Source: Populus alba | Lineage: Eukaryota > Streptophyta > Magnoliopsida > Malpighiales > Salicaceae | Reading direction: 5' to 3' | Length of the DNA: 64,000 nt | Assembly: GCF_005239225.2 (NCBI RefSeq) | Contig: NC_133291.1 | Span: 14,779,654 to 14,843,653 of the forward strand | Position numbers and translations under genes: made by a program | In this document: positions 5,901 through 64,000 of the stretch, one piece after another | Numbering within the stretch: the stretch's first letter is position 1 | Layout of the letters: each line of letters opens with the position of its first letter | The notes under the pieces: model-generated | What the model was told of the DNA's origin: nothing | Seen by the model: the letters and a program-made list of their open reading frames with translations, nothing else | Databases searched by the model: none

Positions 5901-6905
5901 ACCCTTTTTTTCACCCTAAAAATAATTAAAAAATAGAAAAAAGAAAATAAACAAATACAAGAGAATACGCATAAAGAAAGCTTAAAAGACTGCTCAAGTT
6001 GATGGTGAAGGACCAAAATGACAAGTAAGAAGTTAGGAGACCAAAATATAGAAAATTAACTTTATTAGGGACTTAATTGGTGAAAATTAAGTTTGGAAGC
6101 CTAATTTAGGCTAAATCGAGAAGATTAAAATTTTAAAGGACCAAATTTAATTTTACAAAGTGACTTGGTTGAAATCAACGAAATAATTGCTAGAAAATCA
6201 AAGTTTAGGGTCAATTAAAGGTCAAATTGAAGACATTCACAACTAAGGATCTTTTTTAAAAAGGCATTAAACTTTGAGGACTTAATTTGGTTAAAAACAA
6301 GGGTGAAATTAAAGCAATTTGAAAGTAAAATGGTCAATTGAGGATCAATTCGTATAAATCCAAAACCAAGAATTAAAATGAAAAGGAGTTGAACTTTGGG
6401 GTTGATATTTGAGTTTGGCAAGAGTAAAAGCATATAAAATTAAAAGTTTGAAGTCAATTAGGGTTTTTATTAAAAGAAATCAAAAGATAAATGACTAAAT
6501 TGAATTTTAGTCAAATCCTAAATTAAAACCCTAAAGGTGTCAAAACGACACTGTTTCATTTAAATGAAAAGTGCATTTTGACAAAAAACAATTTGTTTTG
6601 GTACAAAAAGATGTCGTTTTGACCAATATAAAAAAAGGCCATTGTTCATCATTTTCAACCTTTTGTACTCAAAAAGCTATCCAAGTGACTACTTTTCACA
6701 AGCATTTAATGCCTCATCTCTCCACTATACAAGACAAACAAGATATCACTTGTATGACCTAACATCTTACTATGCCCAGCGTGATTCCCACCGGTTGGTC
6801 TACTCTATAAGAATTGCAATGCCACCTTAAAAAGGCTGACCCAATTAGCCTTTGCACCCCAATTTCATAGCTTATGATGGTGACGTTTGGCTTATGGTTG
6901 GGATT
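5900..6905. other. Noncoding, possibly LTR-like sequence
   Basis: No coding potential. The sequence is rich in A-runs and short phrases such as GGACTTAATT and AAAACCCTAAA that are frequent in plant gypsy LTR and untranslated regions. It starts beside the truncated RT with GTTGTTACCC and ends directly before a family A LTR start at 6906. I could not prove an LTR because no paired copy was found. Confidence 0.3.
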
Positions 6906-7158
6906 TGATTAGTACTTAAAAATGCATTCTCATTAAGGATTTAAATCATCATATTGCACTTAAAGTATCATTAAATTCCCTAACTTAAGCATGTTTTATA
7001 TTAACAAGTCTGATAATATAAGATAGCTTTAATTTATTGTAAATGCTCATTTTAAATGCAGGCATATCTCAAAATTCAAATGATTGACTGATGTGAGTAA
7101 CTATTGAACGTGAAAGGACAGAAAAAAGGGCTAAGCTTAGAAAAGAAATGCTGGTTCA
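6906..7158 (+). mobile_element. Truncated family A LTR, 5' end, plus orientation
   Basis: Starts with TGATTAGTACTTAAAAATGC, the same LTR start seen (reverse-complemented) at 12487 and 57319 and (one base changed) at 47014. Similarity to the 47-kb LTR continues for about 250 bases up to an AGAAATGCTGGTTCA-like phrase. It then switches abruptly to the 3' noncoding region of the minus-strand element. It is in the opposite orientation to family A copy 1 next to it, so it marks a rearrangement rather than a normal 3' LTR. Confidence 0.75.
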
Positions 7159-7678
7159 ATCATATGTTAAAGTGTGTGTGTGAAAATAAAGGTTTAAGAA
7201 TACTTGTTAAATGAGTATATGAGCAGATTTTTTTTTTTTTTTGATTCTGCGAGAGTATATGATTTTTTTTTTTTAATGAGTATATGATGCGAGAGTTTGT
7301 GAACTTGAATATTTCAAGAGAAGTATGTGATAGACCTTGTTATGAATATTGCAAATAACCATTGGAAAATGTTTACTAAGATACGTCTCAAGAGACAATA
7401 AAATTCTCCCTTACTCTGCCATCCTAGTAATAATAGTTTTATCAAATGGTTTTAATAATAGCAAAAATAGTTAATAAGATTTTTTTTTTAATGTTAACTA
7501 CTACCCTTTCCCCCAACCAAAACGAGACATTGCCCTCAATGTCCTAAGATAGAAAGATGAAGTTTAGAAGACATCACCTAAAACAACGAACACTAACAAA
7601 CCTGAAACACACTTAAACAAATATAAGAAATAACAAAACAAATAATGTGCTATTAACAAAACCAAAAGACACAAGGTT
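7159..7678 (-). mobile_element. 3' noncoding region of family A copy 1
   Basis: Minus-strand noncoding sequence downstream of the LOG reading frame. It contains the phrase ACATTGAGGGCAATGTCTCG (about 7529-7548). This is a hallmark of the region just upstream of the polypurine tract in many plant Athila/Tat-type gypsy elements. The whole stretch matches 58085-58565 closely, apart from small indels and T-runs. In the second copy the same region continues to a polypurine tract and LTR. Here the last ~750 bp and the LTR are missing. Confidence 0.7.
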
Positions 7679-8332
7679 TCACAAACGAAGGCTCAAATCC
7701 AATTTAAGCTTTTTATGGCTTTCTGTCATTGACCAATTTATGAGACTTATGGAGGGATCAATTACAAGGATGCAAGATTGTAGTTGGTCAATCAATTGTT
7801 CAACAGTAGTAGCAGAGATTATGATTTGTCATGCCGAAGATGTTAGAAATTGTTGTTTCATAGCTTGATCAAGAAAAGATAACAAATTATCATAAAAACC
7901 ATTAACATTTAACAAACCTATAGGTTTATGGTGAATATGCAGTTGGGCCCAAGAGGAAATATGAAAGATCTCTTCCAATGTGCCCAAACCACCTGGTAAG
8001 GCAATGAAGGCGTCAGCATGGTTAAACATTGTATTCATTCGATCAGACATTGTGGAGACTTGTAGTTCCTCTCCAATTATTTTTCCAATGATGTCCCCTT
8101 TTGCTAAAGCTTTGGGGACGACCCCCAAAACTTGACTGCCTCCTAAGAATGCAGTCGTTGACACACTCCCCATTAACCCAAGGCTGCCTCCCCCATATAC
8201 TAAATGAATCTTTCTCTTGGCTAATATCTGACCAAGATGATTTGCGGATTCTATAAACTCTTTTTCTTTCTCAGGATTAGATCCACAAAAAACACAAATA
8301 TTTTTTATTTTAAAAGCCAAGGATCCTGCCAT
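7679..8332 (-). pseudogene. LOG: LOG cytokinin riboside 5'-monophosphate phosphoribohydrolase, one nonsense codon, inside a retrotransposon
   Basis: LOG enzymes release active cytokinin bases from their nucleotide precursors. From ATG at 8332 the frame shows KNICVFCGSNPEKEKEF, the nucleotide-binding VYGGGSLGLMG and the family signature PGGLGTLEE, followed by WAQLHIHHKPIGLLNVNGFYDNLLSFLDQA. It stops at TGA 7829-7831 after 167 residues. Beyond that stop the same frame stays LOG-like (QIIISATTVEQLIDQL ... KLDLSLRL) to a natural stop at 7679-7681. Total length is 217 residues, normal for the family. The stop sits where the family usually has Arg, and the second copy at 58.7 kb has CGA there. There is no intron, whereas plant LOG genes usually have several; this suggests a processed copy. 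It lies in sense orientation between gypsy integrase and 3' noncoding sequence. It could make a truncated protein, but functional loss is more likely. Confidence 0.9.
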
Positions 8333-8535
8333 TTCAATACTTGTCTATGCTTGTATGGGTTAAGTAGAAATGAAGGGAAAAAGACGAAGGTTTTATAGAT
8401 GAGAAAAATAATATGCAATCATGGAAGCCAGCTGGAGTCTCTCTCTCTTTCTTCCTTTTTTTGTTCCTTTTTTTTTTTGGAAAAGCATGTGTATGTATAG
8501 GTAGTTGTGATTGTGGCTTATATCTTCCCTTGGTT
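8333..8535 (-). other. 5' flank carried with the LOG copy
   Basis: Noncoding minus-strand sequence between the integrase-fused open frame and the LOG start codon. It has an A-run, a purine-rich GAGAGAGAGA stretch and a TATAAAA at 8391-8397, about 60 bases upstream of the ATG. It does not look like gypsy coding sequence, so it probably arrived with the LOG gene as 5' UTR or promoter. Confidence 0.4.
8391..8397 (-). promoter_or_regulatory. TATA-box-like site upstream of LOG
   Basis: TATAAAA on the minus strand within CTCATCTATAAAACCTTC, 59 bases before the LOG start codon, followed by a pyrimidine-rich leader. Spacing and context suit a plant core promoter, but in A+T-rich DNA the motif is weak evidence by itself. 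If it is real, the captured segment includes promoter DNA, which is odd for an intronless copy. Confidence 0.3.
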
Positions 8536-9228
8536 TTACATCCAAGAACAGCTTAAACGCCCTCTATGAGTCGGGGATAGGCTTCCCATCCAGTTTTTTT
8601 TAAAATTGGCAAACATGGTCTTTTTTTTAGTCAGATTCCAAAGACTATGATGAGCATGTTCTTTATGAAAATGGGGCCATAAATCATGAATTACCCGATG
8701 CACATCTCCACTATGATGAGACTTAAGAGTCAATAGAAGATTATCTAAAGACTTTCTATGTTTTGAAATAAATCCCACCTTTTGACAATTTTGACAGGTT
8801 TTGCAGAATGCATATGAGTCCTTGAACATGGTGGGCTAGTAAAATCCACTTTGCAAGATTTTTACGGTCGTCTTTTTTGATGAGAAATGAGCCCCATATG
8901 CTTCAAAGTGATAAAATTTAATGACAATACTTACCTCATTGTCGGGAATGCATCTTTGAAATAATTGATCAGGACAATATTTGAATAAGGATCATCCCAA
9001 TAAAGGTTTTGCACGTCGCTCAAAAACTTTCTTTTATCTTGGTTATCCAAATGAGCTGGCAAAAATCCTGAAGCAAGAAAATTGTTATTTTTAGCAAACC
9101 AAGGCATTGAACTAATAGAAAGTAAAGATTCATCAGGAAAGTAATCATTGATTGGTGTGATGTTGGATGTCGAATCTATTGTCAATTTTGACAAATGATC
9201 CGTAACAACATTTTCGGTGCCTTTTTCA
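8536..9228 (-). pseudogene. Family A copy 1 pol remnant (RNase H end and integrase zinc finger)
   Basis: Reading down from about 9225: RNase H end and linker (KGTENVVTDHLSKLTID, YFPDESLLSISSMPWFA, DKRKFLSDVQNLYWDDPY), then the start of integrase. The zinc-binding Cys pair is visible as FCKTCQNCQKVGF near 8810-8770. Frames shift near 8930. After residue ~30 of the last open frame (8829-8536), the sequence stops resembling integrase and becomes an unrecognised peptide ending SLSPTHRGRLSCSWM. Catalytic integrase core and C-terminus are absent. This truncated pol is followed 200 bases later by LOG. Confidence 0.8.
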
Positions 9229-10892
9229 TCCTCGATTGCTTCCTGTTTGGTCATGGCATGAGGAAATGGAAGTGCTGACGGGGAATCAGTCTTTTCTTTG
9301 CAATGTTCAGATTCAACCCCTTCCTTACCCTTAAAGATTAACTCATCATCTTTCTCACAAGGTTCAAGAGTGGGTTTTTCAATAACCTTACCACTACGAA
9401 GAGTGATGACTAATTTGACTTGATCCATATGTTGGCTTCCGGAACTACTTGCATTTACATTGTATTTCCCCTTTGGATTTTGTTGTGGTTGAGATGGAAA
9501 CTTACCGTTCTCTTGAAAACTAAGAGCAGATGTGAATTTTGCAAGAGCATCTTTAAAACCTGTCATGTTTTGAGCAAGTTAAGTGTTGATTATCTTTTGC
9601 TTTTCATGAATGCATGCAATGTTTCCTCAAGATTTTTTCTAGGAGGTGAAGCATAATGAGGTGCATATCCATGAGAATTTTGAAAATTATGATGTGCTTG
9701 AAACAATGGCTGTGAAGTTTGTGCATTATTGTTATTACTCTTCCAACTGAAATTTGGGTGATTTCTCCAACCAGGGTTGTATGTTTGCGAGTATAGGTTA
9801 TGATTGAGCCTATGGAAATTGTTTAAACCATAGGCTTATTCATGGAAGCATTCCTTAAAAGAAGGAAAAGTTGGACATCCATTGGTTGCATGTTCATTTA
9901 TTTCATAGATTTGACACATCATGTCTTGAACAGATTTTAATTGACCACTCTTTTTCAATTCTAGTGCATCGACTTTTCTAGCTAAAGATGCAAACTTGGC
10001 TTGGAGGTCATGATCTTCCCTAAGGTTATACATACCTCCATTAGATGTATGAGGTTGGGTTTTACTTGGTGCCTCATAAGTGCCTATAGTGTACCAATTT
10101 TGCGTATTTTCAGCTAAGAAGTCTAGGTACTCCATTGCTTCATCAGGGTCTTTATATTTAAAAGTTCCATTGCACATCAATTCCACCATTTTCCAATCTT
10201 TAGGTGTTAACCCTTCATAAAATTATGAAATCAATCTCCATGTTTCAAAACCATGATGAGGGCAAGTATTAAGCAAGTTTCGATACGTATCCCAGCATTG
10301 GTAAAATTTTTCACCTGTTTTTTTGCATGAAAGTGGTGATTTGTCTTTTGAAAGAGTTGGTTTTGTAAAATGGAAAAAACTTCTTTAAAAATTATTGTTG
10401 CATTTCATCCCAAGCATGAATGGATCCTGGTCTCAAATTTTATAGCCATATTTTAGCTTTATCTTTTAAAGAAAAAGGAAAAAGCTTTAATCTGATGGTG
10501 TTCATGCTACAATTTGAGTCATTATAAGTGTTACAAACTTCTTCAAATTCTCTCAAATGCAAGTATGGATTTTCTAGATCTAAGCCATGAAAAAAAGGTA
10601 AAAGTTGAATAATGCCCAGCTTAAAATTAAAACAAGATGCATCAAGAGGGAAAACTATGCATGAGGGTGCACTTGTTCTTGTGGGATTCATGTGGTCTCT
10701 AAGTGTTCTAACACGGTTATTCTCATTATTCTCATTATGAAGTGAGTGGTTATCTTCTTCAAGTATATTTTCTGAAAATGATGAGGATACCCTACAAAGT
10801 CTACCATTTAATGTTCGTGACCAAACACTCATGCACATGTAGAAAGAGAATAAAAGGAAGAAGAAAAGAAAAATAAAAAGAAAAGGAGACAA
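9229..10892 (-). pseudogene. Family A copy 1 gag pseudogene
   Basis: Minus-strand gag of an Athila/Tat-like gypsy element. N-terminal part 10892-10440 (LGIIQLLPFFHGLDLENPYL, LREFEEVCNTY, LKLFPFSLKDKAK). Stops lie at 10440-10442 and, in frame, at 10392-10394. The middle part 10189-9836 holds a damaged zinc knuckle CQIYEINEHATNGC, with the second Cys now Tyr. The distal part 9566-9229 includes the ITLRSGK motif that ends such gag proteins. At about 9225 gag runs directly into the RNase H end, so protease and reverse transcriptase are deleted. The N-terminal hydrophobic run in the open frame before MSVWSRT is probably leader, not protein. Confidence 0.85.
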
Positions 10893-10974
10893 AACACAAG
10901 AGACAAAAGTTAGATAAAAGAAAAGTGAAAGGATAAAAATATAACAAAATTTATAATTTGTACAGAAATTTACC

Positions 10975-10994
10975 TCCCCGTCAATGGCTCCAAA
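10975..10994 (-). other. Primer-binding site of family A copy 1 (tRNA-Asp type)
   Basis: Minus strand TTTGGAGCCATTGACGGGGA, a slightly diverged form of the TGGCGCCGTTGCCGGGGA complement of the tRNA-Asp 3' end used by Athila/Tat elements. It lies four bases after the LTR end, as expected. Confidence 0.8.
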
Positions 10995-10998
10995 AACT

Positions 10999-12487
10999 TG
11001 ACATGACTAAAAGATTCATGTCTTCTTCCAAGTGCGGGAGTGTCGAAGTAATAAATAACCCGGTAAGACCGAGGTCAAACCACAAGGAGGTTAATTGTAT
11101 AAATTATAGACAACAATAACAATAACAATAACAATAACAACAATAATAATAATGAAGAAGTTGATGAGAACTTTGAGATGGAAGATTAATGTAAGGATTA
11201 AACAATGATAAAAATAGTTAACATGATCATATTAATTATCTTGTTTAAGTAACACCAAACTTTTAAATATTGTCAGGAATTCATGATGCTAACTTATGTT
11301 AACAACAAATCAAGTTCCTTCCATATCATAAGTGTAGGTAATACCATACGGTTGGGTTATGAGAGTGCTAAGCATTTGTTGTACCAAGTGTTATACAACA
11401 CAAATCTAGATTAACCATTTAACAAGCAAGGTATTAAGAATTAGTAAGATAAAAAAAAATAAGACATGTTAATATTAAACATTAAGGTCCATGTTGAGTT
11501 TACACTATACTTATTCTTACACAATTAGTGTAACCTTTTCACCTTGACATAATAAACTTAACTAAACATAATGAAGAAGAGAAACATAAATAAACAAAAT
11601 AAGAACATAAATAAGATACAAGTAAACTAAGTAAAGGAAAGGAAATGAAAAGCATAAACAAGATATTAATGAAAGCAAAACTTAAGAATTACAAAAAAAA
11701 ATATATATATATAAAGAAAGAAATAAAGAGAACTATTGATTTGAACAAAAAAATATATCTTGATCTGAACAACCAAATACCTAAATGCATGACAAATGCC
11801 TCCTTTTATAGGCCAAAATTTAAAACTATTGATTTGATGACTCATTGTTGAGTGGGTGGCCAACTCTTGACTTGGTGAAAATCCTTATCTTCTTGTCTGA
11901 ATAAAACGTCATTGCTAACATTAGAACTGGAACAAACTGTACTAATGAAAGTTATAGGAAATTTTCTTATTTTTCCAGAAAAAACAATTGAGGTCATTTG
12001 GACTTCTAGAACTCGAGATATGGGCTGAACACTGAACAGTGTCTAGGCTGCAAGACAGATTCAGACTTCTTCGTTGTTGCTATAATTTGGACTTGAAAAT
12101 AGCCTTTTTAAAATCTTGGACTCCACATGAAAGTTGTAGGCCTATGTCTTACCGAATCTGTCCAAAACATTGAGGTCATTTGGACATCTAGAACTCAAGA
12201 TATGACCCAATTACCGAACAGTGTTCTAGTTTGGACTGCACCAACATCTCTTTACTAAGTTTGGCCCTCTCTTTGTCCTTTCAATTTCAATACTTAAACT
12301 CATCAATCAATCTTTTCATTTATGTGATAGACCTGTATTTAAGATGAACATTTACCATAAATTAAAGGTATCTTATATTATTAGGTATGTTATTATAAAA
12401 CATGCTTTAGTTAAGAAGTTATTGATACTTCAAGTGCGAAATGATGATATAAAACCTTGATAAGGATGCACTTTTAAGTACTAATCA
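10999..12487 (-). mobile_element. 5' LTR of family A copy 1
   Basis: On the minus strand it runs from TGATTAGTACTTAAAAGTGC (12487) to TTAGTCATGTCA (10999), 1489 bp with TG...CA ends. The primer-binding site and gag follow. It matches the LTRs at 47014-48049 and 54130-57319. A poly-trinucleotide/AAC-rich stretch lies at about 11105-11160, and TTCGACACTCCCGCACTTGG-type sequence lies near the 3' end. Beyond 12487 the flank is family B sequence, so this element sits inside or against family B. Confidence 0.85.
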
Positions 12488-12490
12488 GTA

Positions 12491-13702
12491 CACATATCTC
12501 AAATGCTTGGGCAAAGACTTCAATTCCAACTTTGGTGCTTGTTAAATAAAGGGTAAAACCCTTTCATGAGAATTTGGTAATTGTAACGGAGAGTTACTAA
12601 CTTGTTTGGCATTTGAAATAGTGAATACAAAGACATAATTGTTTCCTTTATGTCTTCACTATTCTCCAACCTTGCATCCCTATTTGTCTTGCTTTGCTGT
12701 AATACAAAGTTCAATTCATCTTGTAAAAAAAATTGTTTAAAATCATCTTGCACAATGGGGTCAATTACAACAACATGAAAAATAGATTCAGAGTCACATA
12801 TCTCAAATGCTTGGGCAAAGACTTCAATTCCAACTTTGGTGCTTGTTAAATAAAGGGTAAAACCCTTTCATGAGAATTTGGTAATTGTAACGGAGAGTTA
12901 CTAACTTGTTTGGCATTTGAAATAGTGAATACAAAGACATAATTGTTTCCTTTATGTCTTCACTATTCTCCAACCTTGCATCCCTATTTGTCTTGCTTTG
13001 CTGTAATACAAAGTTCAATTCATCTTGTAAAAAAATTGTTTAAAATCATCTTGCACAATGTCAATTACAACAACATGAAAAATAGATTCAGAGTCACATA
13101 TCTCAAATGCTTGGGCAAAGACTTCAATTCCAACTTTGGTGCTTGTTAAATAAAGGGTAAAACCCTTTCATGAGAATTTGGTAATTGTAACGGAGAGTTA
13201 CTAACTTGTTTGGCATTTGAAATAGTGAATACAAAGACATAATTGTTTCCTTTATGTCTTCACTATTCTCCAACCTTGCATCCCTATTTGTCTTGCTTTG
13301 CTGTAATACAAAGTTCAATTCATCTTGTAAAAAAAATTGTTTAAAATCATCTTGCACAATGGGGTCAATTACAACAACATGAAAAATAGATTCAGAGTCA
13401 CATATCTCAAATGCTTGGGCAAAGACTTCAATTCCAACTTTGGTGCTTGTTAAATAAAGGGTAAAACCCTTTCATGAGAATTTGGTAATTGTAACGGAGA
13501 GTTACTAACTTGTTTGGCATTTGAAATAGTGAATACAAAGACATAATTGTTTCCTTTATGTCTTCACTATTCTCCAACCTTGCATCCCTATTTGTCTTGC
13601 TTTGCTGTAATACAAAGTTCAATTCATCTTGTAAAAAAAATTGTTTAAAATCATCTTGCACAATGGGGTCAATTACAACAACATGAAAAATAGATTCAGA
13701 GT
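12491..13702 (-). repeat. Four near-identical 304-bp tandem units from a gypsy protease-RT spacer
   Basis: Units start CACATATCTC at 12491, 12795, 13095 and 13399, with periods of 304, 300, 304 and 304 bp. They are almost identical; unit 2 lacks four bases (GGGG shortened and one A lost). On the minus strand each encodes the same roughly 77-residue peptide (DDFKQFFLQDELNFVLQQ to MKGFYPLFNKHQSWN). It is the downstream continuation of the family B protease region (KYPDDSESIFHVVVIDPIVQ). Because 304 is not a multiple of three, each unit changes frame and ends in a stop. The array therefore cannot encode one repeat protein. Very low divergence implies recent expansion. Confidence 0.95.
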
Positions 13703-14290
13703 CATCAGGATATTTCATAGCATAAAAATGTTAAATGTTACTATTCCCCATCAAACTCGCAAGATAAAATTCCTTTATGCACATCGATCTTAGTTCTTTT
13801 TGTTTTCATAAATGGTCTGCCTAACAATATATGAGTTGAGTTTGATGCAAATTCATCATCCATGTCTATAATATGAAAATCCACAGGAAAAATCAATTCA
13901 TTTATTCTAATTAAAACATCCTCAACAATGCCTTATGGGTATGAATTAGACTTATCTCCCAATTGAATTATTACCTTTATTTCTTTTAAATGTCCTAGAT
14001 TCAAAACCTTATAAATTGAAAGTGGCATAACATTGATAGAAGCTTTTAAATCAAGCATAGCTCTTTCCACCTTATGATTTCCAATTATATATGGTATAGT
14101 GAACATACCTGGGTCCTTGCATTTATGAGGAAATTTGCTTTGTATGACTATGGACACATTCTCTCCAACTTTTATTTTCTTAACAATGTTCAATTTCTTT
14201 TTATTGGTGCACAGTTCCTTGAGAAATTTTGCATATCGCGAAATTTGCTTGATCACATCCAATAGTGGAATGTCAACTTCAAACTTTCAA
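13703..14290 (-). pseudogene. Family B (Athila-type) protease region
   Basis: Minus-strand aspartic protease of an Athila-like gypsy element. It shows YAKFLKELCTNKKKL, KCKDPGMFTIPYIIGN, the active-site stretch AMLDLKASINVMPLS and then LGHLKEIKVIIQLGDKSN. The family norm is DLGAS at the active site, and here the Gly is Lys, which should inactivate it. After a stop at about 13933 the frame continues with a DEFAS...LGRPFMKTKRTKIDVHKG stretch and CEFDGE before the tandem array. Reverse transcriptase is not present downstream. Confidence 0.85.
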
Positions 14291-45840: not shown

Positions 45841-45944
45841 TTTCCTTTCAAATGAGGTTTTTCACCTATACCCCTTTTTTTCATTTTTTTTTTAGTTTGT
45901 TATTAACACTTCTTAAAGCTAACTATATAAATATTAGAAAAACA

Positions 45945-46500
45945 TTTTATTTTTTCATTGTGAGATTTGAAACCTTTTAGTATATATATACTCTATGTTT
46001 CTAGGAAAAAAATTATGTTTTTTCAATGTAGGATTTGAAACCCTTTAATATATACACTCTATATTCCCAAGAAAAAAGTTATTTTTTCAATGTGGGATTT
46101 GAAGCCTTTTTGTATATATATTATATGTTCACAAGAAAAAAGTTATGTTTTTTCAATGTGGGATTTGAAACTCATTGGTATATGTTCCAAAGAAAAAGTT
46201 AGTTTTTCAATGTGGGATTTGAAGCCATTTTGTATATATATACTATATGTTCACAAGAAAAAAGTTATGTTTTCTCAATATGGGATAAAAAATCTTTTGG
46301 TTTAAATACTTTAGCTTAAAGTGATAACATAATATTTTTTTTCAATGTGAGATTTGAAGCCCTTTAGTATATATACTTTATGTTCACAAGAAAAAAGCTA
46401 TGTTTTTTTAATGTTGGATAAAAAAAATTTTTGGTTTAAATACTTCAACTTAAAAGCATAACATATTATCTTTTTAATGTGGGATAAAAAACTTTTTAAA
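45945..46500. repeat. Minisatellite 1, about 65-bp units
   Basis: About nine diverged units with the core TTTTTCAATGTGGGATTTGA, then TATATATA and TGTTCACAAGAAAAAAGTTA. Some units are of an alternate type with GGATAAAAAATCTTTTGG. The units are short enough to create a spurious repeated peptide (SMWDLKPFCIYI) in a plus-strand frame. Confidence 0.85.
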
Positions 46501-46589: not shown

Positions 46590-47013
46590 GTGGCATGCCC
46601 TGAAAAAATACAAAGATTTTTTATCAAGTGGTCTTATTGTAATGGGAGATATGCCAAGGAGAAAAATGTGTAGATTTTTCAAAGTGGTCTTATTGTAATA
46701 CGTAACCTACCTAGGTGAAAAATATAAAGATATTTGAGTGGTAAAAAATGCTAAGATTTTTAAAAGTAATGAAAAATGTGAAGAATTTATAAAGTGGTCT
46801 TATTGTAATGTGCGACTTGCCCATGTGAAAATGTAAAGTTTTTCAAAGTGGTCTTATTATAATAGGCAGTCTACCCAAGTGAAAAATATAAAGATTTTCT
46901 AAGTGGTCTTATTATAATTGGCGGTTTGCCCAAGTGAAAAATTACAAAAAAATTCAAGTGGTGAAAAATATGAAGATTTTTCAAAGTGGTTTTATTATAA
47001 TGAACGACTTGCC
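46590..47013. repeat. Minisatellite 2, left part, about 55-65-bp units
   Basis: Units contain AAGTGGTCTTATTGTAATGG, GCGACTTGCCCAAGTGAAAA and TGTAAAGATTTTTCAA. About seven units precede the retrotransposon insertion at 47014, and the array resumes at 49829. Confidence 0.85.
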
Positions 47014-47858
47014 TTATTAGTACTTAAAAATGCATATTTATCAAGGTTTTATATCATCATTTTGCACTTGAAATATCAATAACTCATTAACTAAAGCATG
47101 TTTTATAATAACAAGTCTGATACTATAAAATACCTTAATATATAGTAAATGTTCATCTTAAATGCAGGCCTATCACATAAATCAAAGGATTGATTGATGA
47201 ATTCAAGTATTGAAATTGAAAGGACAAAGAGAGGGTCAAACTTAGAAAAGAGATGTTGGTGCAGTCCAAACTGGAACACTATTCGGTAATTGGGTCATAT
47301 CTCAAGTTCTAGATGTCTAGATGATCTAAAATTTTTATAAAGATTCAGTAAGACATAGGCCTACAACTTTCACATGAAGGCCAAGATCTAAGAACGCCGT
47401 TTTCAAGTCTAAATTATAGTAACAACAGAGAAGTCTGAATCTACCCTGCAACCTAGACACTATTTAGTGTTCAGCCCATATCTCGAGTTCTAGAAGTCCA
47501 AATGACCTCCATTTTTTTTCCTGTAAAGCTAAGATAATTTCCTATAACTTTCATATGTATAGGTAGACCCAGTTTTGATGCTAGAAATGACGTTTTATTC
47601 AAACAAGAAGATAAGAATTCTAATGACAAATCATATGATTGGAACGTCCTTCGTGTGTGGTTTCTAGTTGAGTAATAAGAGTTTATACTATACTTGTTTG
47701 AAATACCATTAGTGAATCCTCTAACCTTGACACTTGTTTTTATCATTGTTTAATTCTCACATTAATCTTCCATCTTAAAATTCTCATCAACTTCTTCCTC
47801 TTCCTCTTCTTCTTCTTTATTATTAATATCATCATCATCATCATTATTATCATTATAT

Positions 47859-47896
<38 letters not shown>

Positions 47897-48049
47897 TTAT
47901 TGTTGTTGTTGTTGTTGTTGTTGTTGTATTATTGTTATTTATAATTTATACAATTAACTTCCATGTGGTTCGACCCCGGTCTTGCCGGGTTATTTATTAC
48001 TTCGACATTCTTACACTTGGGAGAAGACATCAATCTTTTGGTCGTATCA
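47014..48049 (+). mobile_element. 5' LTR of family A copy 2
   Basis: Runs from TTATTAGTACTTAAAAATGC (the first TG mutated to TT) to TTTTGGTCGTATCA. At 1036 bp it is about 450 bp shorter than the LTR at 10999-12487. It lacks the central AACATGATCATATTAATTAT / GCCTCCTTTTATAGGCC part. A compound microsatellite lies at 47791-47937. Confidence 0.85.
47791..47937. repeat. Compound microsatellite (TTC, ATC, ACT, TTG) in an LTR
   Basis: CTTCTTCCT units, then ATC, then ACT x about 12, then TTG x about 8. The corresponding site in the 10999-12487 LTR is an AAC/AAT-rich tract, so this is a hotspot of length change. Confidence 0.9.
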
Positions 48050-48055
48050 AGTTTT

Positions 48056-48073
48056 TGACGCCGTTGCCGAGGA
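48056..48073 (+). other. Primer-binding site of family A copy 2
   Basis: TGACGCCGTTGCCGAGGA, two changes from the tRNA-Asp complement, six bases after the LTR end. Confidence 0.85.
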
Positions 48074-48213
48074 GGTAAATTCTTGTACAAATTATAGTAT
48101 TTATTTTATTTTATCTTTTCTCTTTTCTCTTTTCATGTATCTAACTTTGTTTCTTTTGTTTTGTTTCTTTTTCTTTTGTTTTCTTCTTCCTTTTATTCTC
48201 TTTCTACACGTGC

Positions 48214-49425
48214 ATGAGTGTTTGGCCACATACATTAAGTGGTAGACTTTGTAGGGTATCCTCATCATTTTTCGAAAATATGACCGAAGAAGATAACCAG
48301 TCACTTCATAATGAGAATAAAAGTGTTAGAACACTTAGAAACCATATGAATCCCATAAGAACAAGTGTACCCTCATGCATAGTTTTCCCTCCTGATGCAT
48401 CTCATTTTAATTTTAAGCTAGGCATTATTCAACTTTTACCTTCTTTTCATGGCTCAAATCTAGAAAATCTATACTTGCATTTAAGAGAATTTGAAGAAGT
48501 TTGTAACACCTATAATGACTTAAATTATAGCATGAATACCATTAGATTAAAGCTTTTTCCTTTTTCATTAAAAGATAAAGCTAAAACATGGCTACAAAAT
48601 CTTAGGTCAGGATCCATTCGTGCTTGGGATGAAATGCAACAATAATTTTTAAAGATGTTTTTTCCATCTCACAGAACCAACTATTTCCAAAGACAAATCA
48701 CCACTTTCACTCAAAAACCAGGTGAAACATTTTACCAATGTTGGGATAGGTATCGAGACTTGTTTAATACTTGCCCTCATCATGGTTTTGAAACATGAAG
48801 ATTGGTTTCATAATTTTATGAAGGGTTAACACCTAAAGATAGGCAAATGGTTGAATTAATGTGCAATGGAACTTTTGAAGATAAAGACCCTAATGAAGCA
48901 ATGGAGTACCTAGACTTGTTAGCTGAAAATGTGCAAAATTAGGACACTACGACACTTATGAGGCACCAAGTAAAACCCAACCTCATACATCTAGCGAAGG
49001 TATATATAACCTTAGGGAAGATCATGACCTCCAATCCGAGTTTGTATCTTTAGCTAGACAAGTTGAGGCACTAGAATTGAAAAAGAGTGGTCAATTAAAA
49101 TCTATTCAAGACATTGTGTGTCAAATCTGTGAAACAAATGAACATGTAACCAATGATTGTCCAACTTTGCCTTCTTTCAAGGAATGCCTCCATGAACAAG
49201 CTCATGCTTTAAATAGTTTCCAAAGGCCCAATCATAACCCATACTCGCAAATATACAACCCTGGTTGGAGAAATCACCCAAATTTTAGTTGGAAAAGTGA
49301 TAACAATGATGCAGAAACTTCACAGCCACCATTTCAAGCACACCATAATTTTTAAAATTCTCATGGATATACACCTCCTTATACTCCACCTCCTATAAGA
49401 AATCTTGAGGAAACATTACATGCTA
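48214..49425 (+). pseudogene. Family A copy 2 gag pseudogene
   Basis: Starts MSVWPHTLSGRLCRVSSSF and shows LGIIQLLPSFHGSNLENLYL, LREFEEVCNTY, LKLFPFSLKDKAKTWLQNLR and AWDEMQQ, then an in-frame TAA at 48643-48645. The same TAA occurs at the same codon in copy 1. Downstream, after more stops, come QITTFTQKPGETFYQCWDRY, LTPKDRQMVELMCNGTF, an intact CX2CX4HX4C zinc knuckle CQICETNEHVTNDC (from about 49116) and a Pro/Asn-rich tail. It ends at RNLEETLHA, where RT sequence is abruptly joined. Confidence 0.88.
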
Positions 49426-54129: not shown

Positions 54130-54243
54130 TGACATGATCAAAAGATTGATGTATTATCCTAAGTGCAAGAGTGTCGAAGTAATAAAATAACCTCGACAAA
54201 ACCGAGGTCGAACCATAGGACGTAACTATATAAATTACAAATA

Positions 54244-54274
<31 letters not shown>

Positions 54275-57200
54275 TTAATAAAAATAAAATGTTTATGAGA
54301 ATTTTATGGGATATTAATGTAAGGATTAAACAATAATAAAAGAATTATCAAAGTTAGAGGATTCCACTAATGGTATTAGAAATAAAATATAGTTATAAAC
54401 TCTTTTTTATTAATCAACTGGGAAACCACACACAAAGGAGGTTCCAATCGAATATTTATCCTTAATAGTTCATTATAAATTGTTAACATGATCATATTAA
54501 TTATCTTATTTAAGTAACACCAAACTTTTAAATATTATCAGGAATTCATGATGCTAACTTATGTTAACAACAAATCAAGTTCCTTTCATAGCACAGGTGT
54601 AGGTTATAGACTATGAAAGTGCCAAGCATTTGCTATACCAAGTGTTATACAACACAAATCTAGATTAACCATTTAACAAGCAAGGTATTAAGAATTACTA
54701 AGATAAAAATGATAAGACATGTTAATAGCAAGTTGTTTAGGATATAAGTATTAAAGTCCATTTGAGTTTATATTATATTTATCTTAATACCATTAGTGAA
54801 ACCTTTCACCTTGACATAATAAACTTAGCTAAATATAATGAAGAAGATAAACATAAATAAACAGCATAAGAACATAAGTATAGTAAAGGAAATGAAAAGC
54901 ATAAACAAGAGATTAAGAAAAATATAACATGAAATAAAACTTAAATATTAAAAAAAATATAAATTAAAGAAATAAAGAAACATTGATCTTGATCTGAAAA
55001 CAAGATGCCTAAATGCATGGCAAATGCCTCCTTTTATAGGCCAAAATTTGGAACTATTGATTTAATGACTAATTGTAGAGTGGGTGGCCACATTATGATT
55101 TGGTGACAATCCTTATCTTCTTGTCTAAACAAAACATCATTGATAATGTCAGAATTTGAACAGACTTACACTACAAGATTTAACAGTTTTACCGACGGAA
55201 TTTTTCCGTCGGCGTAAGACACATTATTCTGTAATTAATTTACCGACGAAATCACCGACGGAGAATTTCCGTCGGTGAATCTTTCGCCGGTAATTTTTTT
55301 TCCATCGGTAATTCCATTGGTAATAATTATTACCGATGGATTTACTGGCGGAACAGACGCGTTAGTAAATTTTTTTTTTTTTTATTACCGACGGATTTAC
55401 CAAGGATTTACCGACGGATACTTAAATTTCCGTCGGTAAATCCGTCGATAATTATTTAAAAATATTTTTTTAAAAAAATTCATTTTATAAAATTTATAAA
55501 AATAATTAAATTAACTAAATCAACATTGTATAATATATACTTCAAAATGCTTGGAAAAAGAATAAGAAAATCAACTCAAACAAAATTTGCAACAAAAAAA
55601 TAAAACAAAAAATTAATTCAACTAAAAAAATTCATATGAAAAAAAATGAAGTTGCAATTGCTAAAAATTTAAAAATCCTATAAATAAATCAAATAAAAAT
55701 TGATCTCATATGAAGAAAAAAAATCTCACAACAACATTTATACAATTATTAAGAACAAAATCAATTAAAATTAAATAAAAACAAATATAGTGAAAAATCA
55801 TGAAAAAATAAGAAAAAAGAAAGATCTTACCTTAATATACTTGCAAGTGAAGCTTAAGGAAAAAAAAAATCGTGAAGCATATATTAATTAAAAAAAACTA
55901 AGAGGATAAAAGAAGAAAGAAAGAAGAAGGAAGAAGAAGACATACCCGAGCATGGAGGAAAAGAGAAGGAGATGAGGAGAGAAAAGAAGAGAAAGAAATA
56001 GATATTGATGTTTTTTACATGTAGTGAAGAAGAAGAAGAAGAAGAAGAAGAAGTAGAAGTAGAAGTAGTAGAAGAAGTAGAAGTAGAAGTAGTAGAAGAA
56101 GAAGAAATAGAAGTAGTAGAAGAAGAAAAAGAAATAATGAGTCTGTCTCTTGTGAAATAAGCGGATTCAGGTTTTTTATTGGGGCGCTTTACCGACGGAT
56201 TTACCGACGGATAATTGAATATTAATATTTTTTAATTATTCCGTCGGTAATATTTAATTTAAATTTTTAATTTCGTAAAAAGTTTTCAGAAACCGCCAAA
56301 AATTACCGATGATTTTTTAATCCGTCTGTGATTTCGTCTGTAATATTTAAATGAAAATTTTAAATCAATTGAATTTTTTCAGAAAACCGCCAAAACACGC
56401 CGATGAATTTTCAATCCGTCTGTGATTTTGTCCGTAAAGTAAAACAATTAACAGTGCAATTGGAAGATGAACAGTTCTGGAGCTCTCTGTAAAATACCGA
56501 TGGAAAAATTCCGTCGGTAATTCCCTTTATAATTGACATGATGATCAATGTTCACATTTTACCAACGGATTTCCCAACGGAATTACCGATGGAAAAAAAT
56601 TCCGTCAGTAAATCCGTTGGTAAAAAATGACACGTCATCTTTTTTTTTTGCTTTGCTTTTAATTTTTTTTTCCCACGGTAATTCCCTCGGTATATATACT
56701 GAGGGAATCTTTCCGTCGGTAAAAATCCCTTGGAAATATTTCCGTCGGAAATATTCCCTCGGTATTTCCATTTGTATTTATTGATTTTCTGGTAGTGTTA
56801 ACCATGAAAGTTCTAGAAAATTGTCTCAGCTTTCCAACAAAAAAAAAATTGAGGTGATTTGGACTTTTAGAACTCAAGATATGGGTTGAATACTGAATAG
56901 TATCTGGGCTGCAGAATAGATTCAGACTTCTCCATTGTTGCTATAATTTGGACTTGAAAATGACCTTTTTAAATTTTGGGCTCCGCATAAAATCTTAGAG
57001 CAGACCTAAATCCAAGTTCTAAAGCTCTAGTTATGATCCAATAACCGAACAGTATTTCAGTTTGGACTGAACCAACATCTTTTTTCTAAGCTTGGCCCTC
57101 TCTTTGTATTCTCAATTTCAGTAGTTAAACTCATCAATCAATCCTTTGATTTATATGATAGGTCTATATTTAAAATGAACATTTACTATAAATTAAAAAG

Positions 57201-57319
57201 TATCTTATATTATTAGATATGTTATTATAAAACATGCTTTAGATAAGGAGTTATTGATACTTGAAGTGCAAAATGATGATATAAAACCTTGATAAAAATA
57301 CAGTTTTAAGTACTAATCA
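54130..57319 (-). mobile_element. Family A copy 3 3' LTR, interrupted by a CACTA element
   Basis: On the minus strand, from TGATTAGTACTTAAAACTG (57319) to TTTTGATCATGTCA (54130). Removing the CACTA insertion and its 3-bp duplication leaves about 1558 bp, close to the 1489-bp LTR at 10999-12487. A polypurine tract and 3' noncoding region lie on its high-coordinate side. An (AT)n run lies at 54246-54272. Confidence 0.88.
55169..56797. mobile_element. Non-autonomous CACTA (En/Spm-type) transposon
   Basis: Ends are CACTACAAGATTTAAC and (reverse complement of the right end) CACTACCAGAAAATCAA. It is flanked by TTA on both sides (55166-55168 and 56798-56800), the 3-bp duplication expected for CACTA elements. 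Both subterminal zones (55185-55450 and 56185-56765) are packed with direct and inverted copies of ACCGACGGA / TCCGTCGGTAA, the presumed transposase-binding repeats. The interior is A+T-rich, with a GAAGAAGTA-type microsatellite (56025-56130). There is no transposase frame, so it needs an autonomous partner. Confidence 0.93.
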
Positions 57320-57336
57320 CACCCCCAACCAACTTA
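57320..57336 (-). other. Polypurine tract of family A copy 3
   Basis: Minus strand AAGTTGGTTGGGGGTG abuts the LTR start TGATTAG. This purine-rich stretch fits the primer for plus-strand DNA synthesis. Confidence 0.7.
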
Positions 57337-58565
57337 TTACTAGTCCCCGGTAATCAAAGCGTTAAAATAGAAAAACAATTTACAAGTTCCACAAAGCAAG
57401 ACATTCATCATTCAACTTCCATTAATTCATCCAAATAAACAAACTCTCATTAAATTTATATATCAGCTTCATACTTCTTAAACAAGATATTAATAAACAT
57501 TTTTTTTGTGCTCAATATATCAACATATAGTAATGAGATCTTTACTTGGAAGAAAACAAAATTTTGTTCTAATGTTTAAGGTTAACTTTCTTGGGTTGAG
57601 ATTATTTTTTTTTTTCTTTTTTTTAATATATATATATTATATATATATATAGACACACACACACATAACTTTTTTTAAAAAAAAAAAAACAATGCATCTT
57701 TAACCCATGTAACGAGCTTTAGGCATTAGGTGTTGAGACACCTCTTCTAGCTTAGTAACTCGGGTTGCAGATACTTATTTGTAGATAGTGCAATGTTTGA
57801 TTCCCTTAAGCTTTTCTCCTTAACTCATGTAACAAGCACTGGGCCAATAGCTCCCAAGTCAGTTGATTTTAGGGTATTAAGTGTTAAAATACCCCATCGG
57901 GCTTAATTGCTTAAGTTAGGGAGGCTACGAAACCAAACTTATCTACGTTTTTATTTATTTAGTTAATTACATTTATTATCATTTTGTTTTTTTTTTTTTT
58001 TTTTGCAAATTATATACTATCTCTTTCTCTTAGTTGTTACCTATAAGAAAAGAACTTAAAATAATGTAATAATCCAATATACAACCCACAATCGTATGTT
58101 AAAATGTGTGTGAAAATGAAAGTTTATGAATACTTGTTTAATAAGTATATGAGCAGAATCAATTGATACTAATGCGAGAGTTTGTAAACCTGAATATTTC
58201 AAGAGAAGTATGTAATAAACCTTGTTACGAATATTGCAAATAACCATTGAAAAATGTTTACTAAGATGCGTCTCAAGAGTCAATAAAATTCTCCCTTACT
58301 TTGTCATCCTAGTAATAATAGTTTTGTTAAATGTTTTTATTAACAACAAAAGTAGTTAGTTAGTTTTTTTTTTTAATGTCAACTACTACCCTCTCCCTTC
58401 AACCAAAACGAGACATTGTCCTCAATGTCCTAAGGTAGAAAGATAGAGTATAGAAGACATCACCTGAAACAAAGAATATTGACAAACCTAAAACACATTT
58501 AAACAAATATAAGAAATAACAAAACAAAATAATAAGCTATTAATAAAACCAAAAGACACAAGGTT
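57337..58565 (-). mobile_element. 3' noncoding region of family A copy 3
   Basis: Noncoding minus-strand sequence between the LOG fragment and the polypurine tract. It includes ACATTGAGGACAATGTCTCG near 58410-58430. 58085-58565 matches 7165-7678 of copy 1; 57337-58084 has no counterpart there. Long T-runs and an AT/AC run (57630-57665) occur. No coding. Confidence 0.75.
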
Positions 58566-58762
58566 TCACAAACAAAGGCTCAAATCCAATCTAAGATTTT
58601 TACGACTTTTCTTAGTTGACCAATTTATGCGACTCATGGAGGGATCAATTACAGAGATGAAAAATTATAGTTGGTCAATCAGTTATTCAGCAGTAGTAGT
58701 AGAGATTATGATTTGTCGTGCCAAAGATTTTAGAAATTCATGTTCCAAAACTTGAAAATAGC
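58566..58762 (-). pseudogene. LOG: LOG C-terminal fragment in family A copy 3
   Basis: Minus-strand homologue of the last ~60 codons of the LOG copy at 7679-8332. It reads ARQIIISTTTAE, stop, LIDQL, stop, then VIDPSMSRINWSTKK and LRLDLSLCL before the same natural stop position (58566-58568). It keeps Arg (CGA) at the codon that is TGA in copy 1 but has its own two nonsense codons. Upstream of about 58762 the LOG similarity ends and family C leader-type sequence begins. Its position relative to the 3' noncoding region is identical in both copies. Confidence 0.88.
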
Positions 58763-59029: not shown

Positions 59030-60661
59030 TGTTGCGATGTCGCAGTCGCACAAATTAATTACCCTAGCTTCAAACACAACACATAAGATAGTATAGAGCA
59101 AGCAAGGGGTCGATCCCACGAGGAAGGTTCAAGTCAGATTTTTATGCTAGATGATATGCAATTTAGGGGGGGTTGGACGTTATCTAGGCTAAACTAAAAG
59201 AAAATAGAAAACTATCAAACAAAATTTAATAAAATCAGAAAATTATCAAGAGAACAAACCTTGGTCGCAAGCACACATCCACCTATAGAAATCAGAACTG
59301 ATCATGGAAACGAGACATCAATTTATATTTTGAATAATTATCTCTTCTTAACATTGGTTAGTTAACGGATCCGTTGTATAACTAACCCTAACCACCAAAC
59401 AACCATAGTGTCTGCACTAGTAATTTAATTCAATGACAGCCTTAATAACTAGATAAGTTTATTAACCAAGAAAACATAACTGTCTGCAGTCTATGTTTGA
59501 TTTGATCGAATGTTCTCCCTAAGAATAATAACATAGATCCGCCACAATTATTAAACTCAGTTGCTTCACAAGTTCATATACCACAACTCCGGTTTTGATA
59601 TCAAACTTAGCAATAGATTGTCTATAATAAAAACTTAGAGTCCGCTCTAGCAATTAAAATAAACAATCATAAGAAAAATAAGCATAGGAGAACAAATATA
59701 TTCATCATATAAACTGAAAAGAAAAGGTAAAATAAATCTCACAGTTCTTAAAATCCGAAGGTTTCCGTGTCCTTGCAACCAAGAAAACAAGTTTAGCCTT
59801 GCATGTTTGTTGAATAACTAATTAAAAAGATGGAAGAATGCATAATTTTGGGTTTATTAGAGTAAGGGGCGTTTTTCTCCTCTTGGGTGGCTGGTTGCCC
59901 CCCCCCCTTTCTTCTCTCATTCTTTTTATATGCTAGGAAACCCTAATCTCTATTTTACAAAATAGTCCTCCCTTAAGTATACAGTTTACATTTAAGTAGT
60001 TCAATAACTATTTTTTCTAAAAAAGGAGAAATAGCATTGCATGAAATCTTCAAGCTTTGACTTAGAGGAGCTAAATTGCTGAAATAAAAACTTGGATGTT
60101 TGTTTAGATGTTTTAGAACGTAATTTGGACTCATTTCTTCACAGAACCTATTTGCTGGTAGAATTAAGTTGTCATATTTGAAAACTCATATCTCCCTCAT
60201 ATGACATCGTTTTTTGCTGAACTTTGGAGTTTTTATAGGTCTTTTAGTCAGGAATCCAAAACAATTGAGTGTGCATCAATTAGACTTTTGTAACTCCAGA
60301 TATTCAAGTTGGAATGACCAAAGGTCAACACTAGCAGATTGCGAGATTTGACTTTGAAAGCTGCGATTTCCATGCTCTTCCTTAGTTTATTGTCTTGCCT
60401 TAGATGTACAGAAAGGTATGGATGTTAGCTTTTTAATGGCACTGGAATCACTTCATTTCAACGTTTAGAGCTCATGCTCTGCATAAAATATCGACTCAAG
60501 GTCAAATATGCTAATTACCTCCAATTTACTCCTTTTTACATCTTTCATCCAAAAGTGCCTTCAAAACATAAAACAAAGAATATCAAAGCATTTTATATAT
60601 AAAACATATGCAAAACACTAGTTAAATATGGGTGAAACTATCGAATAATATGGTTGCATCA
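59030..60661 (-). mobile_element. Family C LTR
   Basis: On the minus strand it runs from TGATGCAACCATATTATTCG (60661) to CGACATCGCAACA (59030), 1632 bp with TG...CA ends. It has a purine-rich tract before its start and a primer-binding site after its end. The internal region is therefore present on both sides, which is not the arrangement of a single complete element. A C-run of nine lies near 59899. Confidence 0.85.
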
Positions 60662-62123: not shown

Positions 62124-62640
62124 TCATTCTTCATAGATTGGTTCAGCTAACTCTGCAAAAGCGGTGAGTTCTGCCGTCCAACCTTCATTGAAAGGTTTTA
62201 AACGATGCCCATTGACCTTGAGTACTTTGTTGGTTTTCAAACTTGTAATTTCAACTGCACCATAAGAAAAAAATATTAGAAACATCAAAGGGTCCAATCT
62301 AACGAGAGCATAACTTTCCAGGAAAAAGTTTCAAACACGAATGATAAAGAAGGACTTTGTCTCCAACATTAAACTCTTTTCTTGTAATCATTCGGTCATG
62401 GAGACTCTTAGTCTTTTCTTTGTAAATCCTTGCATTCTCATAAGCATCATTTCGAATCTCTTCCAAATCTTGTAATTGCAACTTTCTTGTAATCTTGGTA
62501 GCATCATAATCCATGTTACATTTTTTAACGGTCCAAAAAGCTTTGTGTTCAAGCTCCACCGGTAGATGACATGCTTTTCCATAAATCATCCTATAAGGCG
62601 ACATTCCTATAGGTGATTTGTAAGCAGCCGATAAGCCTAA
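62124..62640 (-). pseudogene. Family C integrase C-terminal part
   Basis: Minus strand: [70 protein letters not shown] and [16 protein letters not shown] frameshift near 62300 follows, then a KTNKVLKVNGHRLKPFNEGW tail and AEPIYEE ending at TGA 62124-62126. Typical Athila/Tat integrase C-terminus. Confidence 0.88.
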
Positions 62641-63480
62641 AGTGCATCACCAAGTCGTAGACTCCAATCTCGCCGATTAGGTTGCACTGTCTTCTCCAAA
62701 ATGGACTTGATTTCTCAATTTGAAATTGCAGCTTGGCCATTTGTTTGAGGATGGTATGCTGTGGAAGTCCGATGAGTCACATGATATTTGCGTAACAATG
62801 CTTCCATTGAACGATTGCAAAAATGAGTGCCACTATCACTAATGATAGCTTTAGGGATTCCAAACTTGTCAAATATGTGAGTCCTAATAAAATCTAAAAC
62901 AACCTTAGCATCGTTAGTTCGTGTGGGTTTTGCCTCAATCCATTTGGACACATAATCAACAACAAGAAGGATATAAAGATTGCCAAAAGAAGAAGGAAAT
63001 GGACCCATAAAATCAATACCCCAAACATAAAAAAATTTCACTTACAAGAATATTCATTAAAGGCATTTGATTCTTATGAGTGATATTACCTGTTTTTTGG
63101 CATTTTTCATATGATTTGCAAAAATTATATGCATCCTTAAAAATAGAAGGCCAATAAAAACAATTTTCAAGTACCTTGTGGGCCTTTTTTTTGCTCCAAA
63201 ATGCCCACCACAAGAATGAGAATGACAAAAGGTAAGAATGGAATGAAATTCATCTTGTAGTACACATCTCCTAACTACTTGATCCCCACAAAATTTCCAC
63301 AGATAAGGAATATCCAAAAATAATATTTAGCATTAGCTTGTAACTTGTCTTTTTGGGATGTAGACAAACCTAGATGGAATTCTTTGGTGACTAAATAGTT
63401 CACCATATCAACATACCATGGTCTTGTAGTGGAATGTAACACATACAACTACTCATCAGGGAACGTCTCTCGTATTGTTT
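62641..63480 (-). pseudogene. Family C integrase zinc finger and core, catalytic Glu lost
   Basis: The zinc-binding region reads CHSHSCGGHFGAKK and, after a frame change, FCKSYEKCQKTGN (63230-63060). The core shows [58 protein letters not shown] and [14 protein letters not shown]. The first and second catalytic Asp (IDFMG, ISDSG) are present. The Glu expected in NGQAE is Ala (GCA), and two codons later a TGA replaces the usual Arg. The enzyme would be dead even without the frameshifts. The spacer toward RNase H (63317-63505) is also readable with stops. Confidence 0.9.
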
Positions 63481-63505
63481 TGGTTTGTATATCCTTAGTC
63501 CTCAG

Positions 63506-64000
63506 TCAACTTAAGTGATCAGCCACATGGTTTTTGGCACCTTTGTTGTCTTTAATCTCGAGATCAAATTCTTGTAAAAGCAAGATCCACCTAATCAATC
63601 TTGGTTTGGACTCCTTTTTCTTCAAAAGATACCTTAAAGATGCATGGTCGATAAAAATAATGACTTTTGTACAAAGTAGATATGACCTGAATTTTTCAAG
63701 AGCAAACACTACTGCAAAATGTTCCTTTTCAGTTGTATGGTAATTGCATTGTGCTCCGTCCAACATGCGGTAAGCATAAGCGATAACATGCAAATTCTTC
63801 CTTATTCTTTGCCCAAGGACAGCCTCTATCGCATAATCACTCGCATCACACATTATCTCAAAAGGCTCATCCCAATTTGGTGGTTGGATGATAAGGGCAG
63901 AAGTGACACGCTTTTTAAGCTCATTATGGGCATTTTTACATGCTTGATCAAACACAAAATCCACTTCTTTGGCTAATAGTTTGCACAAGGGTGCTATAAT
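63506..64000 (-). pseudogene. Family C RNase H and RT connection, cut by the window end
   Basis: An open frame of 160 residues running to the window edge. It includes [100 protein letters not shown] and VADHLS. The RNase H acidic residues (CDASD, TEKE, FIDHA) are present. This piece is intact here, but the downstream integrase is broken. The reverse transcriptase proper lies beyond 64000. Confidence 0.9.

Follow-up and report, generated by a model that had tools for sequence, protein, structure and literature searches.

An LTR element with host gene sequence is found in maize, where Bs1 represents a partial and more recent host-gene capture; the poplar elements described here likewise carry a host-type gene, LONELY GUY (LOG), but differ from Bs1 in that the capture appears old and in that LOG is present at high copy number and often open. 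According to the available sections of PMC9289625, the consensus sequences of LTR elements from two Citrus species contain a YgdH domain, which is otherwise known from the LONELY GUY family; with a filter switched off, P. trichocarpa elements contain it too, in agreement with Steinbauerova 2011 as cited there (PMC9289625). The LOG/Gypsy association in Citrus and Populus is already known from these sections (PMC9289625); an earlier, sequence-only reading of the present DNA, whose observation is confirmed here, had overlooked that the domain had been published in such elements. Those elements resemble ours in having a LOG-family domain inside a Ty3/gypsy element and, in part, in the host genus; they are described there by domain presence only, whereas position, open frames, selection, a pol-less subfamily and a zinc-finger neighbour are reported here (PMC9289625, available sections). 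A host-type enzyme has likewise become fixed as an extra frame in orchid Gypsy elements encoding an AlkB RNA demethylase, which is of another enzyme class and has been assayed, whereas poplar LOG is known here from sequence alone (PMC9289625, available sections). In general organization the poplar elements correspond to Athila (Neumann 2019, PMC6317226), sharing gag-PR-RT-RH-INT and one or more frames between pol and the 3′ LTR; unlike Athila as presented in the accessible part of that work, their accessory frames are CRP-like and LOG, with no Athila ORF-1 match. The accessible part also indicates that extra frames of at least 250 codons only were surveyed, a threshold that would miss the zinc-finger and LOG frames, both of which are shorter (PMC6317226).

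The other accessory frame matches models of viral proteins. Carlavirus and mandarivirus cysteine-rich proteins (CRPs), as described in the available text of PMC12172455, share with the poplar frame a basic stretch followed by a cysteine finger and the families PF05515/PF01623; unlike them, the poplar protein is retroelement-encoded, has a length of 182 aa and a finger with the spacing C-x2-C-x4-C-x3-C. The same text presents viral CRPs of carlavirus type as reported silencing suppressors, and p12 of chrysanthemum virus B as a transcription factor inducing hyperplasia (PMC12172455). In the literature searched (titles and abstract starts), nothing was found that places a carlavirus-type CRP in a retrotransposon; the Pfam numbers retrieved papers on glyoxalases, judged by title, and among the matches listed none combined carlavirus, LTR retrotransposon and nucleic acid binding. 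The available sections of PMC9289625 name no Carla protein, and those of PMC7264820 name no LOG, lysine decarboxylase, Citrus or Populus.

The window, by which we mean the whole stretch of 64,000 nucleotides analysed, lies on contig C8 of a 416-Mb, 96-contig Populus alba assembly that was searched genome-wide. It contains three members of one LTR family (Table 1). With a probability of about 0.7 we read the LOG-bearing copy (copy 1) as a degenerate member, with pol deleted, of a Gypsy lineage in Populus that has two accessory genes after the integrase, the first of which would encode a zinc-finger protein of carlavirus-CRP type and the second LOG.

Table 1. Features of the three family members in the window (strand: + forward, - reverse,. 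junction).
Feature	Position	Strand	Basis or remark
5′ LTR of copy 1, TGATTAG...GTCATGTCA, 1489 bp	10999..12487	-	LTR matches, ends read
Primer binding site of copy 1, TGGCGCCGTTGCCGGGGA-like, 3 mismatches	10975..10992	-	
Leader and decayed gag of copy 1	9239..10974	-	aligns to L032 gag frame
Internal deletion 1 junction, copy 1	9238..9244	.	protease, RT, RNase H lost
RNase H/integrase linker and integrase H2C2 finger remnant	8760..9238	-	collinear with L032 pol frame
Internal deletion 2 junction, copy 1	8752..8760	.	integrase core and start of zinc-finger frame lost
C-terminal remnant of putative carlavirus-CRP-like zinc-finger frame	8536..8752	-	collinear with L032 6049-6263
TATAAAA motif	8391..8397	-	~60 bp upstream of LOG start; putative promoter
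LOG frame with premature TGA	7679..8332	-	frame reading, Pfam, structure-database match
Element 3′ noncoding region, copy 1	7159..7678	-	adjoins LOG in relatives
Inverted LTR fragment replacing 3′ end of copy 1	6895..7161	+	matches 12487-12234 reversed, 81%
LOG C-terminus, copy 2	58566..58755	-	match to copy 1
3′ noncoding region, copy 2	58089..58565	-	match to copy 1
Polypurine tract of copy 2, before its 3′ LTR	57320..57335	-	read
3′ LTR of copy 2, split by insertion ~55167-56803	54130..57319	-	LTR matches
Third family member: 5′ LTR, primer site 48056-48073, gag	47013..49423	+	LTR match, Pfam

The anatomy of copy 1 can be read directly from the window. Its LOG frame starts with an ATG and stays open for 167 codons (8332-7829), until a premature TGA at 7828-7826, after residue 167, downstream of which the remainder of the 217-codon frame is readable in-frame to the stop at 7681-7679. 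The frame has no intron, belongs to PF03641 (Pfam, E 1.9e-33) and has Arabidopsis At2g37210 as its closest solved structure (E 1.8e-49); owing to the premature TGA it falls short of a full LOG frame, and this copy is a dead fossil. The intronless LOG frame inside an LTR element that had been proposed earlier was confirmed; the frame is broken and the element pol-less. The 5′ LTR matches the LTRs on the 47013 and 57319 sides as well as those of copies retrieved elsewhere in the genome. Three TGGCGCCGTTGCCGGGGA-like primer sites occur in the window, where 0 are expected by chance; we take such a site to pair with tRNA-Asp, and a tRNA-Asp primer site is typical of Athila. Two frames of the decayed gag region gave no Pfam match, and the L032 gag frame to which it aligns belongs to PF03732 (E 3.1e-19). 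The two internal deletions are revealed by comparison with the pol-bearing loci L031-L033, in which the gag query aligns as two blocks with pol between them and the integrase-side query breaks at 232/240. The linker and H2C2 remnant matches PF17921 weakly and under the cut-off (E 0.018 and 0.028). The earlier assignment of 8536-8930 to an integrase remnant stands in part: 9238-8760 is integrase-side, whereas 8752-8536 corresponds to the end of a separate 182-aa zinc-finger frame, as L032 6049-6263 does.

Neither copy 1 nor copy 2 is a complete element. Most of pol is gone from copy 1, which also has no 3′ LTR, its 3′ region ending abruptly at 7157-7161 against the inverted LTR fragment; from copy 2, everything upstream of the LOG C-terminus is gone. 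Positions 58172-58755 match 7287-7868 at 88% over 584 bp in the same orientation, which bears out the claim that a second family copy has a LOG C-terminus beside the same 3′ region. At the polypurine tract of copy 2, ggttgggggtg precedes an LTR beginning TGATTAG at 57319, and the same motif precedes the 3′ LTR in L009, L012 and L015. The insertion in its 3′ LTR contains a serine-rich frame at 55884-56231. The gag of the third member belongs to PF03732 (E 3.8e-5). We also would like to point out other repeats in the window: directly beside the 5′ LTR of copy 1, at 12491-13704, stand four tandem units of 300-304 bp with an open frame, of which three do not differ and the fourth matches less well without gaps (~99% overall); imperfect direct repeats, TTTTTTCAATGTGGGATTTGAA-like units, are clustered at 45936-46496; and a second LTR family occupies 59050-60000 and 62299-64000, where an LTR with a primer-site-like gtcgttgtcgagga is preceded upstream by two frames, one for RNase H and one that is integrase-like and without Pfam match. 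LTRs related to this second family are present in L010 and L015.

Relatives of the window LOG are numerous: in the DNA search, each of the best 40 of 1183 candidates aligned over 621 or more of the 654 bases, with 90-100% identity. Flanks were surveyed in 20 of the 39 matches other than the window's own. All 20 have the integrase-side remnant upstream of LOG; gag lies upstream on the same strand in 18 (all but L010 and L013), an LTR upstream in 17 (all but L010, L019 and L026) and an LTR downstream in the same orientation in 17 (all but L018, L019 and L025, with L013 and L028 having fragments only). The 3′ noncoding region adjoins LOG in the 20 retrieved copies, reversed and partial in L014 and L021, and also in L029-L033. 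Since the gag-to-integrase junction is crossed unbroken in 17/20 of these relatives, pol was lost before the pol-less subfamily spread. LOG is open over 216 codons in only one of the 20. Paired LTRs, primer site and polypurine tract were all found in the family, which is a real LTR lineage carrying LOG; usable LTR pairs came from 13 of 26 oriented loci, some possibly not sister LTRs, and the target duplication of the one copy examined is non-identical (GTGAT/GTTAT). The element flanks common to the 20 relatives support the proposal that LOG was captured by an LTR retrotransposon family and moved by it, and flanks shared on both sides of LOG fit a single capture, possibly of a host LOG transcript as the earlier reading supposes. 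Neither LOG in conserved host flanks nor a family whose copies are without LOG throughout, two outcomes named beforehand as speaking against capture, was found.

Pol-bearing copies reveal the fuller organization. L031-L033 have gag sequence, RNase H and integrase domains, then the zinc-finger frame, LOG and an LTR, their 5′ LTRs lying outside the stretch retrieved. Among the three, the gag Pfam match is in L032, which has a partial RT only and a protease match slightly below its cut-off; in L031 and L033 the RT match passes the threshold. In the pol frames of all three, Pfam detected no extra RNase H between RNase H and integrase, and the absence of an additional RNase H speaks for Athila under the scheme given in the accessible part of PMC6317226. 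No match to Athila ORF-1 was found in the frames scanned. The lineage is most likely Athila, within the Populus Gypsy LTR elements. L029 and L030 have neither RT nor RNase H, yet their LOG is open, and their LTRs are nearly identical (K2P 0.0013 and 0.0043; the other 11 loci for which a pair could be used gave 0.02-0.17). Such copies may have been assisted by copies that have pol. The zinc-finger frame of L029 is open too.

In copies with pol, the 182-aa zinc-finger frame lies between integrase and LOG; the sequence-only reading had overlooked this frame. Its linkage to LOG is directly observed: when the best 150 of each list are compared (for the zinc-finger frame, the best 150 of 1765 candidates in P. 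alba), it stands 234-280 bp upstream of LOG on the same strand in 44 of the best 150 LOG matches, and pairs within 3 kb in any other order number 0. Six extra copies, taken at even steps of the LOG list, all have it upstream, five whole and one partial. The frame passes the curated cut-offs of both PF05515 Viral_NABP and PF01623 Carla_C4 at the four loci L029, L031, L032 and L033; at E <=0.001, PF05515 is matched by 23/23 aligned relatives (best 3.5e-8) and PF01623 by 21/23. The cysteines C-x2-C-x4-C-x3-C are invariant or nearly so and are preceded by a basic stretch. A database search yielded 613 relatives, the 120 listed including named proteins of Populus, Xanthoceras and Acer. Viral contigs, scanned with LOG by itself, with a LOG alignment and with an alignment of the zinc-finger frame, yielded matches to the pattern and among them no relative. 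By both viral models the frame appears to be of carlavirus cysteine-rich-protein type; its predicted structure is poor (pLDDT 55.7). An element-born finger resembling the viral models by chance or convergence would account for the modest E-values of PF05515 (3.5e-8 to 1.6e-6 among those printed) and for a match centred on the basic, Cys-rich stretch; we consider this explanation less likely than not, as the printed members pass the curated cut-offs of both viral models and E 0.001 is reached by no further Pfam family in any of the 23.

Whether any LOG copy is intact had been left conditional earlier, and many are open. With the P. trichocarpa LOGL10 protein P0058 as query, 1750 candidates were obtained, of which the best 150 are full or nearly full length, lie on 22 contigs and have 82-85% identity to the query; 136 show no stop where they match it and the other 14 have one or more, a best-scoring set that overstates the intact share, the true copy number being higher. 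A sample blind to LOG was drawn with the 3′ noncoding region of L029 as query (40 places of 1327 candidates). In it, 21 places, including L029, adjoin LOG without stops, and 6 of the 18 retrieved from the other 19 have an open LOG, giving 27/39 open. The 12 non-open ones comprise 7 with stops or shifts and 5 without LOG except for its last codons. In these five young copies (L040, L041, L048, L049 and L051) hardly any sequence separates the zinc-finger frame from the final codons of LOG. They constitute a LOG-deleted subfamily that has spread, and since their 3′ regions are still 98-99% identical, LOG is not needed in cis for spread.

Decay is near-neutral in the pol-less subfamily. For LOG in its 21 copies, observed over expected N:S was 0.88 for private and 1.33 for shared changes; the corresponding values were 1.13 and 0.97 for gag (n=16) and 0.96 and 0.64 for the dead zinc-finger remnant (23 shared changes). 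Pairwise LOG dN/dS was 0.78 (210 pairs, n=21), and selection on LOG was looked for in this subfamily, the window's own, and not found. Open copies have a lower dN/dS, 0.24 as ratio of means in 11 copies (median 0.25, range 0.03-1.33, 55 pairs; mean dS 0.12, mean dN 0.029), taken from a protein-score ranking that favours low dN and biases the ratio downward. Pair by pair, five of the 11 gave 0.03-0.30, and the zinc-finger frame gave 0.11-0.41. In the LOG-blind young sample dN/dS was 0.42 (8 collinear copies of the 18 retrieved), with observed over expected values of 0.84 for private changes and 0.33 for shared ones, the latter on 7 changes only (3 N, 4 S). Constraint in source lineages combined with drift after insertion would give this pattern, that of a selected element gene, the unbiased sample being small. 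A TATAAA stands ~60 bp upstream of the LOG start in 25/26 aligned copies (all but L018), and in 10/10 pairs of five open copies the spacer with this motif has diverged less than the 3′ region, barely so in the closest (0.040 vs 0.043); LOG may have a promoter of its own or a splice acceptor.

LOG might instead be a neutral passenger, captured, copied along and open only since many copies are young, a reading that is compatible with the near-neutral ratios of the 21 pol-less copies, with the spread of LOG-deleted copies, with two open copies having nearly identical LTRs and with the young sample's ratio of 0.84 for private changes. We judge it improbable, because silent divergence among open copies averages 0.12 while dN is 0.029, because the frame has kept its 217 aa in P. 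alba copies and in the P. trichocarpa type although the proteins are only 82-85% identical, and because the spacer is less diverged than the 3′ region in all ten pairs. That LOG is a selected accessory gene of the element is, in our judgement, likely.

With regard to origin, the element LOGs compared have 44-51% identity to two Arabidopsis LOGs, because of which the capture looks old, and 56-63% to two LOG-like stretches of Xanthoceras; a tree of 14 rows groups the latter with the element LOGs (92/90), followed by Arabidopsis. The database holds many 217-aa frames of element-LOG type on single contigs, mostly in metagenome or ENA entries, and the organisms named are Populus, plus two Xanthoceras. 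P. trichocarpa and P. x canadensis proteins have 94-97% identity among themselves, and none of the best 150 of 1750 P. alba matches reaches 94-97% to P0058. The element LOG family also includes three proteins that go by the name LOGL10 in P. trichocarpa and P. nigra (P0058, P0115 and P0121); their genes may be those of elements, annotated as if they were the host's own. A bacterial rather than plant origin of LOG, to which the absence of introns and a PGGLGTLEE loop as in one bacterial LOG would point, is very unlikely, since the tree, which has only 4 outside references and long bacterial branches, places element and Xanthoceras LOGs with the two Arabidopsis LOGs and away from the two bacterial ones (100/97). 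That LOG forms part of normal host DNA, as a segmental duplication or a processed pseudogene, and has an unrelated element for a neighbour is scarcely credible despite the two copies within one window, as element flanks stand on at least one side in 20/20 retrieved copies, LOG matches occur on contigs C1 to C19, and at both window loci host DNA was ruled out by the shared element context.

Element LOGs carry the PF03641 domain and the PGGxGTxxE motif of LOG phosphoribohydrolases, nearly invariant in 21 aligned proteins, in which Arg 98 and Glu 121 are invariant. The M-H-x-R-K of the two Arabidopsis LOGs, retained in Xanthoceras, is M-[SFY]-[DE]-R-[ML] in the aligned element proteins; with this motif altered and its Arg kept, activity or substrate may have changed. 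That the element LOG is an active enzyme is somewhat more likely than not. Within the preferred reading, of a selected accessory gene, intact copies would make active LOG, converting cytokinin ribotides to free cytokinin, from a TATA-containing unit of its own or from a spliced RNA; the zinc-finger protein, by analogy to viral CRPs, might act in the nucleus or against silencing; and both together could maintain division, or weaken silencing, in cells that express the element, so that the germ line would receive new copies. The step from a selected LOG to hormone manipulation is one that we infer, and hormone manipulation as the benefit of LOG to the element is a tentative suggestion, to be treated with caution because M-H-x-R-K is altered and LOG-less copies spread. 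More speculative still is a virus-like module, in which a silencing- or growth-acting finger and a cytokinin-activating LOG would push cells towards division or meristem fate and so raise transmission. This module, or at least the zinc-finger gene, may be common to related elements across Malpighiales and Sapindales (Populus, Xanthoceras, Acer).

With a zinc-finger gene of viral type next to LOG, it seems that RNA viruses and plant retroelements have exchanged genes. Poplar LOGL10 gene models are possibly element genes, a point to bear in mind when cytokinin genes are counted or their expression is studied. If the LOG of intact copies is active, poplar harbours a mobile element many copies of which encode an enzyme that activates a hormone, and plant hormone level could form part of the life cycle of the element.
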